DNA of 64,000 nt from Halogranum rubrum. Lineage in GTDB: Archaea > Halobacteriota > Halobacteria > Halobacteriales > Haloferacaceae. This document shows, in pieces, positions 42,132-42,706 of this stretch. The notes beneath the pieces were generated by a model. It was not told where the DNA came from and did no database searches. It saw only the letters and a list, made by a program, of their open reading frames with translations. The number at the start of each line of letters is the position of its first letter. Positions within the stretch are counted from its first letter, which is position 1. Position numbers and translations under genes: made by a program. The stretch covers positions 62,001 to 126,000 of the forward strand of contig NZ_FOTC01000005.1 of NCBI RefSeq assembly GCF_900114455.1, given 5' to 3'.

Positions 42132-42254
42132 TCAGTTGGGTCGGTTCAGCCGTCGGTCGCGGGTGAGGACGGCGCCGTCGTCGAGGCCCTCGGGGACCTC
42201 CGCGCCGACGAGGTCCGCCCACTCCGCGATTCGGTTGCGTGTCTGTTGACTCAT
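42132..42254 (-). CDS. 40-residue small protein upstream of hef
   Basis: MSQQTRNRIAEW to RRLNRPN. The frame has typical haloarchaeal codon use (third-position G/C) and ends in TGA. GTTATATATC on the minus strand (42288-42297) sits 34-43 bp before the ATG, implying a short leader. It lies 144 bp before hef, which has its own TATA box, so it is a separate gene. No family recognised. Part of the next stretch (42255-42380) is AT-rich promoter DNA. Confidence 0.55.
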   Translation of the reverse strand: MSQQTRNRIAEWADLVGAEVPEGLDDGAVLTRDRRLNRPN

Positions 42255-42380
42255 GCTCTCGCCCTCGAAAGGTGTATCTCAATCAAGATATATAACGGTT
42301 GTGTCGGCGAAGAAACAAACTGTTCGTCTCGAACCCGCTGTGTCCGACAGGCGGCTGACGCGGCGAGCGGAGGCGACTCA

Positions 42381-42460
42381 TAATGACTGCTGTAAGTCGG
42401 TACCGATCCGACCGCATGCCGTCGTGCGGTCGGATCGGTACACAGTTACAGCAGTCATTA
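42381..42460. repeat. 80-bp foldback inverted repeat (possible MITE or terminator)
   Basis: Two 36-nt arms (42381-42416 and 42425-42460) are inverted copies around an 8-nt loop. The outer 15 bp (TAATGACTGCTGTAA) and inner 17 bp (GTACCGATCCGACCGCA) match perfectly, and mismatches are confined to four central positions. The element abuts the ferredoxin stop codon. Its ends read TA-ATGAC and GTCAT-TA, so a TA duplication can be drawn, and TCA also flanks both sides. This would suit a miniature IS630/Tc1-type element; a long terminator is the alternative. Confidence 0.8.
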
Positions 42461-42706
42461 TCAGGGGACGAGCTGTTCGCCGTCGTCGTCGTAGAGGGTG
42501 ATGGCGTCGACGGGACAGACGCGGGCGGCGAACTCCGCATCGAACTCCGCATCTTCGGGGACTTCACGGACGAACACCTGTTCGTCGACTTCTTCGGCGT
42601 CTACCAAATCGGCTTTCCCCGCGTCGAGGTTCTTCTCGAAGGCGTCCCACTCGTCGACGCACTGGAAGATGCCGATACAGGTCTCGCGGTCGTACTCGAT
42701 TTTCAT
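42461..42706 (-). CDS. Ferredoxin with only three cysteines
   Basis: 81 residues. Cys10 and Cys16 lie in CIGIFQC, and Cys64 in ARVCPVDAI, the usual site of the last ligand before proline. The position normally filled by Cys or Asp between the first two is Ile13. This suggests a [3Fe-4S] cluster or an incomplete [4Fe-4S] site. The protein is strongly acidic between the halves (about 32-60). It may carry electrons to an unknown oxidoreductase. No redox partner is adjacent. Confidence 0.82.
   Translation of the reverse strand: MKIEYDRETCIGIFQCVDEWDAFEKNLDAGKADLVDAEEVDEQVFVREVPEDAEFDAEFAARVCPVDAITLYDDDGEQLVP

Follow-up and report, generated by a model that had tools for sequence, protein, structure and literature searches.

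An 80-bp foldback element at the ferredoxin stop codon of Halogranum rubrum as a probable non-autonomous MITE with a 3-bp target-site duplication

Introduction

Beside the ferredoxin gene of Halogranum rubrum stands an 80-bp palindrome, and it raises the question whether it is a mobile element or a signal of the neighbouring genes, and, if mobile, which enzyme moved it. The window analysed here is a stretch of 64,000 nucleotides (contig NZ_FOTC01000005.1, positions 62,001 to 126,000). An earlier note, made from the letters alone, had favoured a miniature inverted-repeat transposable element (MITE) of IS630/Tc1 type with a TA duplication and had named a dedicated terminator or protein-binding site as the alternative. 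The comparisons described below make it probable that the palindrome is a non-autonomous foldback MITE, moved in trans, most likely by a haloarchaeal subgroup of IS630 elements, into the ferredoxin stop codon.

Structure of the Foldback Element

The 36-nt arms and 8-nt loop described in the earlier note are real: in an inverted-repeat search 40-nt arms (42377-42416 and 42425-42464) with 90% complementarity and an 8-nt spacer were detected; the element proper is the 80-bp unit of 36 + 8 + 36 nt listed in Table 1. Its RNA fold was calculated at -65.3 kcal/mol versus -29.0 for shuffled sequences (z = -10.5), and because none of 200 shuffles was equally stable the foldback lies far beyond chance. 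The element begins and finishes with TA, the TCA noticed previously on both sides is indeed present, and this 3-bp duplication lies outside the terminal TA.

In 20 aligned copies of the element, 25 of 38 pairs were changed on both sides with the full palindrome kept, and a conserved asymmetry, AGTC facing CTGT without pairing, lies at about positions 16-20 of each arm. Judged from these alignments, either the two ends or the foldback as such must matter, which is not in itself proof of an RNA role. The 4-nt loop (CCGT or ACGG) stands either way round with respect to the asymmetric arms (L003, L021, and others), as if the hairpin tip were able to invert. An Rfam search with the foldback returned sub-threshold chance matches only, and the phage collection searched with it gave no match.

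Table 1. Features of the foldback element and its neighbourhood in the window.
Feature	Position	Strand	Basis
Foldback MITE, TA...TA ends	42381..42460		Inverted repeat; boundaries from G001 empty site and H. katesii copies
Left copy of target-site duplication, TCA	42378..42380		Direct repeat with 42461-42463; single in G001 empty site
Right copy of target-site duplication, the ferredoxin TGA stop codon	42461..42463	-	Sequence, ORF, G001 empty site
Left terminal inverted repeat region, TAATGACTGCTGTAAGTCGGTACCGATC	42381..42408	+	Register of IS630-type IS ends, 16/28 to best
Right terminal inverted repeat region, TAATGACTGCTGTAACTGTGTACCGATC, read inwards	42433..42460	-	Comparison with IS ends
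Conserved hairpin core, CGACCGCATGCCGTCGTGCGGTCG	42409..42432		Common to dispersed copies in many haloarchaea; 66 exact-match stretches
4Fe-4S ferredoxin gene, 81 aa, Fer4_15; insertion target	42461..42706	-	ORF and Pfam domain
40-aa ORF downstream of element, TATA box kept in G001 and G002; synteny marker	42132..42254	-	No Pfam match

The Ferredoxin Locus and Its Empty Allele

The order of the ferredoxin gene and the 40-aa ORF is kept without the foldback in two genomes of the same genus (G001 and G002). Followed along the coding strand of ferredoxin, the window sequence is CTCGTCCCC-TGA-(80 bp)-TGA-GTCGCC, with CCCC before the first TGA, while the empty site of G001 reads CTCGTCCCC-TGA-CGCACC and contains a single TGA; therefore the duplicated 3 bp are the stop codon, TGA, which reads TCA on the plus strand, the ferredoxin stop at 42463-42461 being the complement of the right TCA. 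The clean left junction for this locus comes from G001 only, in which the spacer has diverged too; in G002 the stop is TAA, the spacer has diverged and the element is absent. The insertion exactly at the ferredoxin stop, as had been suggested, was thus confirmed, the TGA stop itself being the target-site duplication.

Since the duplication rebuilds the TGA immediately ahead of the element's initial TA, the insertion would have left the ferredoxin protein unchanged and would have added a long hairpin to the 3' end of its mRNA; a secondary effect of this hairpin on the ferredoxin transcript is possible. On the other side some 120 bp lie between the hairpin and the downstream start of the 40-aa gene, the TATA box region of which is intact. 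In the same-genus genomes this ORF with its TATA box is conserved between the ferredoxin gene and a Hef-like helicase/nuclease gene.

Dispersed Copies and the Target-Site Duplication

Three further, diverged copies (L003, L004, and L005) were found in the Halogranum rubrum genome itself, and the foldback matched in 14 of 99 relatives. Most of the exact matches to the 24-bp hairpin core in the genome collection are held by Halomicrobium katesii, and the others come from Halobaculum, Halogeometricum, Halorientalis, Haloarcula, and further Halobacteriales; copies also occur in plasmid records of Natribaculum, Natrinema, Halococcus, Haloplanus, and others. In the 2.4 Mb of the H. katesii genome scanned, 117 paired elements were counted, mostly of 79-80 bp.

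The flanks of these copies reveal the duplication directly. Equal 3-bp flanks, TGA/TGA or TCA/TCA, were found in 58 of 59 elements in katesii loci and in all 16 TSA-flanked copies of other loci. At one H. katesii locus (L060) the occupied site TCA-(element)-TCA is matched in a relative with 98-99% identity (G279) by the empty site GGCGGTGGG-TCA-GTCCTGACTGG. Within H. katesii another repeat is found intact as TATAGTAACAAT-TGA-AACGATTT (reading CAAT-TGA-AACG), while several copies of it are interrupted as ...CAAT-TGA-(element)-TGA-AACGATTT. Repeated insertion at the same TGA within another foldback repeat (TATAGTAACAATTGAAACG...) was also observed at the H. katesii loci L037, L060, L114, and L228.

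Because the empty sites of this family carry a single TGA or TCA and no TA, the terminal TA is a part of the element and the duplication is TSA; the TA duplication proposed in the earlier note is refuted. The same note had named a unique sequence with no empty sites as the outcome that would speak against mobility, and what was seen is dispersed copies together with empty sites. At the level of sequence comparison the mobility of the element, its boundaries, its target-site duplication, and its insertion at a stop codon are demonstrated. The MITE assignment is upheld by a short non-coding unit with terminal inverted repeats (80 bp, 36-nt arms), multiple dispersed copies, and a target-site duplication seen together with empty sites.

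The Candidate Autonomous Partner

To find an autonomous partner, 2.4 Mb of the H. katesii genome were scanned for paired ends that stand between equal TNA flanks. Three nearly identical 1142-bp insertion sequences were obtained, TGA-(TACGGTCGTGC...GCACGACTGTA)-TGA, which encode an IS630-family transposase with HTH and DDE_3 domains split over two frames; the half-frames scored 97 and 89 with the NCBIfam IS630 model NF033545, just below its cut-off of 100, and, as counted from the sequence, a distance of about 54 residues separates the last two catalytic residues. One of the three ISs lies in a host repeat, intact copies of which read CTCGT-TGA-CTGC, and the IS begins directly after the TGA, with no TA, a comparison that concerns the left junction only. 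Homologues of this transposase, with up to 86% identity, are present on many haloarchaeal plasmids, with ends TAGTGATTAGTTCGAATCTTTACCGGTA and variants, and TSA flanks that are equal in 7 of 9. When exact-end patterns were used to look for an autonomous IS, H. katesii yielded further foldbacks only.

The MITE arms and the IS ends stand in one register, with TA at positions 1-2 and TTTACC at 19-24. The best match between a MITE and an IS end covers 22 of 28 positions (L093) and the window arms agree with the best IS ends at 16 of 28 positions only, while in H. katesii itself what the MITE ends share with those of the resident IS is mainly TACGG and a TTTACC-like block. A profile of MITE ends scored 16 of 18 IS ends above their own shuffles (p <= 0.01), and independent TSA-TA background sites had a mean of -25 bits, four high background values probably coming from loci that hold MITE copies (L165-L167). 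The relatedness of the MITE ends to those of a transposase-encoding element is thereby demonstrated at a strength of 16-22 of 28 positions, and these sequence data support well the IS630-type class of the mobiliser, as distinct from the one element that moved the window copy. Of the IS630/Tc1-type mobiliser proposed previously, the family therefore stands, since IS630-family elements with matching ends and flanks exist, and its TA duplication was wrong.

We infer the trans-mobilisation by this subgroup and its cut-and-paste chemistry as follows. The transposase would act in trans and would most likely come from the haloarchaeal IS630 subgroup with 28-bp ends TAGTGATTAG...TTTACCGGTA; it would excise the foldback and join it to a staggered 3-bp target TGA or TCA, and repair would then duplicate this target. 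In Halogranum rubrum the target would have been the ferredoxin TGA stop, and the element would have become part of the ferredoxin 3' untranslated region. Neither an autonomous IS nor a homologue of the katesii transposase was detectable in the genome of the window, so the insertion is probably an orphan and the copy is probably immobile now.

That the foldback was moved instead by another enzyme with a 3-bp duplication, for example of IS5/IS1031 type, or by an unseen element, the similarity to IS630 ends being partly convergent, appears unlikely. Such an explanation would accommodate the lack of this IS630 subgroup in the element's own genome, a 1116-bp cassette of H. katesii that shares the MITE ends but has no transposase, and the roughly 1.2 Mb of H. 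katesii outside the scan; however, the ends, the register, and the TSA duplication all agree with the IS630 subgroup, and the transposase-bearing IS copies among those examined in the 2.4 Mb of H. katesii are solely of this type.

The cassette itself (L309:1384-2499, G099:C2) has the same ends as the MITE and TGA/TGA flanks and contains a DUF7509 gene with a winged-helix gene divergent to it. It is absent in a relative (G278), its left junction lies exactly at the TGA stop of a gene, and it has the appearance of a gene cassette mobilised in trans. Its candidacy as the autonomous partner was rejected: six other plasmid pairs of DUF7509 and HTH genes have no such ends, and for this reason the two genes are probably passengers. 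Such a two-gene couplet of DUF7509 and divergent winged helix is conserved on numerous haloarchaeal plasmids, in varying gene surroundings (L361-L366).

Insertion at Stop Codons

The window copy is not the only one at a stop codon. The TGA stop of a predicted gene was used in 12 of 47 katesii insertions, counted in called neighbourhoods only, where such stops make up 6.1% of the noncoding TSA sites (binomial p 2e-5); since the gene calls came from a simple codon model, the size of this enrichment is approximate. None of the 47 insertions has coding sequence on both sides. Several copies at other loci also sit at the TGA of long acidic ORFs, and most copies are intergenic and away from gene ends. 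Part of the enrichment may reflect selection in favour of insertions that do no harm.

These observations can also be read as the signature of a bidirectional terminator, an mRNA 3'-end stabiliser, or a protein-binding palindrome that evolved at gene ends and does not move. The very stable hairpin, the pairing maintained by two-sided changes, and the enrichment at stop codons would fit such a role, but paired changes are also expected if one transposase must fit both inverted ends, and the predominance of intergenic copies does not suit a gene-end signal. Empty alleles with exact 3-bp duplications and insertions within other repeats speak against it, as does the absence of the foldback beside ferredoxin in G001, G002, and other genomes that have the gene. 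An intrinsic terminator would moreover combine the hairpin with a T-rich tract, conserved at the gene, whereas the sequence after the hairpin on the ferredoxin strand is TTATGAGTCGCC, with no such tract. Because close relatives keep the gene order without the element and this tract is missing, the terminator or protein-site alternative is not needed, and we consider it very improbable.

The mobile-element reading can be extended, tentatively and with somewhat less than even confidence, to a distinct haloarchaeal IS630 lineage that has changed from TA to a 3-bp TSA duplication, prefers TGA stops, and produces large swarms of 80-bp MITEs and occasional gene cassettes. The TSA duplication would then lead to preferential insertion into TGA stops, in which the stop is rebuilt and the host gene remains unharmed. 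If true, this would be a "safe landing" transposon that spares host genes, and recurrent insertion at TGA stops would be a route to avoid host damage in dense genomes, while adding very stable hairpins to mRNA 3' ends, including that of the ferredoxin mRNA.

Related Foldback Families

A second foldback family (TAGTAGCGTTTGCAA ends; L188, L189-L216, and L373), abundant in Haloferax mediterranei pHME505 and others, has the hairpin core in common with the first family, its ends resemble ISNma7, and it has a TA duplication at one empty site. When IS-sized copies of a sister family with ends TATAGTAGCG were sought in 245 genomes, foldbacks only were found. Other H. katesii foldbacks (L171-L185) combine the ends of the window family with an unrelated hairpin core (CCGGTGAGCGTCTACCCCGTGGCGACGCTCACCGG), suggesting from their sequences that ends and core may be exchanged as modules.

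A classical IS630/Tc1 MITE with a TA duplication and coincidental TCA flanks, which could appeal to the TA at both element ends, to the TA-duplicating sister family with ends TAGTAGCG, and to the similarity between the ends of that family and ISNma7, is hardly credible, given that TGA/TCA flanks covary in 106 of 117 katesii copies (58 TGA/TGA and 48 TCA/TCA in 2.4 Mb) and that every empty site of the window family carries one TSA.

Comparison with Known Systems

The SMRs and MITEs of Haloquadratum walsbyi are alike in size, prominent inverted ends, high copy number, and insertion into other mobile elements (PMC3119063). For the SMRs, which are 80-110 bp long, no target duplications were reported, and their ends were described as resembling no transposon (PMC3119063), whereas the window family has IS630-like ends and, unlike the SMR-A/B type as described, a 3-bp duplication; this comparison is by description and not by sequence. 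Bacterial REP elements, which are moved by REP-associated tyrosine transposases (PMC2817692), are likewise dispersed extragenic palindromes, and they differ from the window family with its target duplication and long paired terminal repeats.

The ISNma7-type IS630 elements and the TAGTAGCG foldback family, whose ends begin with TAGTAR, have the hairpin core CGACCGCACG..CGTGCGGTCG in common with the window family; they differ in having different ends and in the duplication, which was TA at the single empty site observed.

With the IS630 and IS630-Tc1-mariner (ITm) group and its MITEs the system has in common the HTH and DDE_3 domains of the partner, short inverted ends, and non-autonomous derivatives, and it differs in the 3-bp TSA duplication in place of TA and, in the candidate partner, in the spacing of about 54 residues between the last catalytic residues and in the split frame. 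For IS630 elements the duplication described is TA (PMC2170065; PMC8533490), while TAA/TAAA variants are known for Fot-type pogo elements (PMC7386202) and TATA for Sailor (PMC8533490); TSA is not among the departures from TA reported for this group in these three sources, and among IS630 elements it is unusual for a 3-bp TSA target to be duplicated. By every feature tested the element is a MITE, yet it fails the TA feature of IS630/Tc1 while its apparent partner is of the IS630 family. IS630/Tc1/mariner transposons are characterised by the TA duplication, and a prokaryotic TSA lineage that departs from it, documented by empty sites in the same genome and in near relatives, is a natural experiment on the evolution of target choice in a transposase fold.
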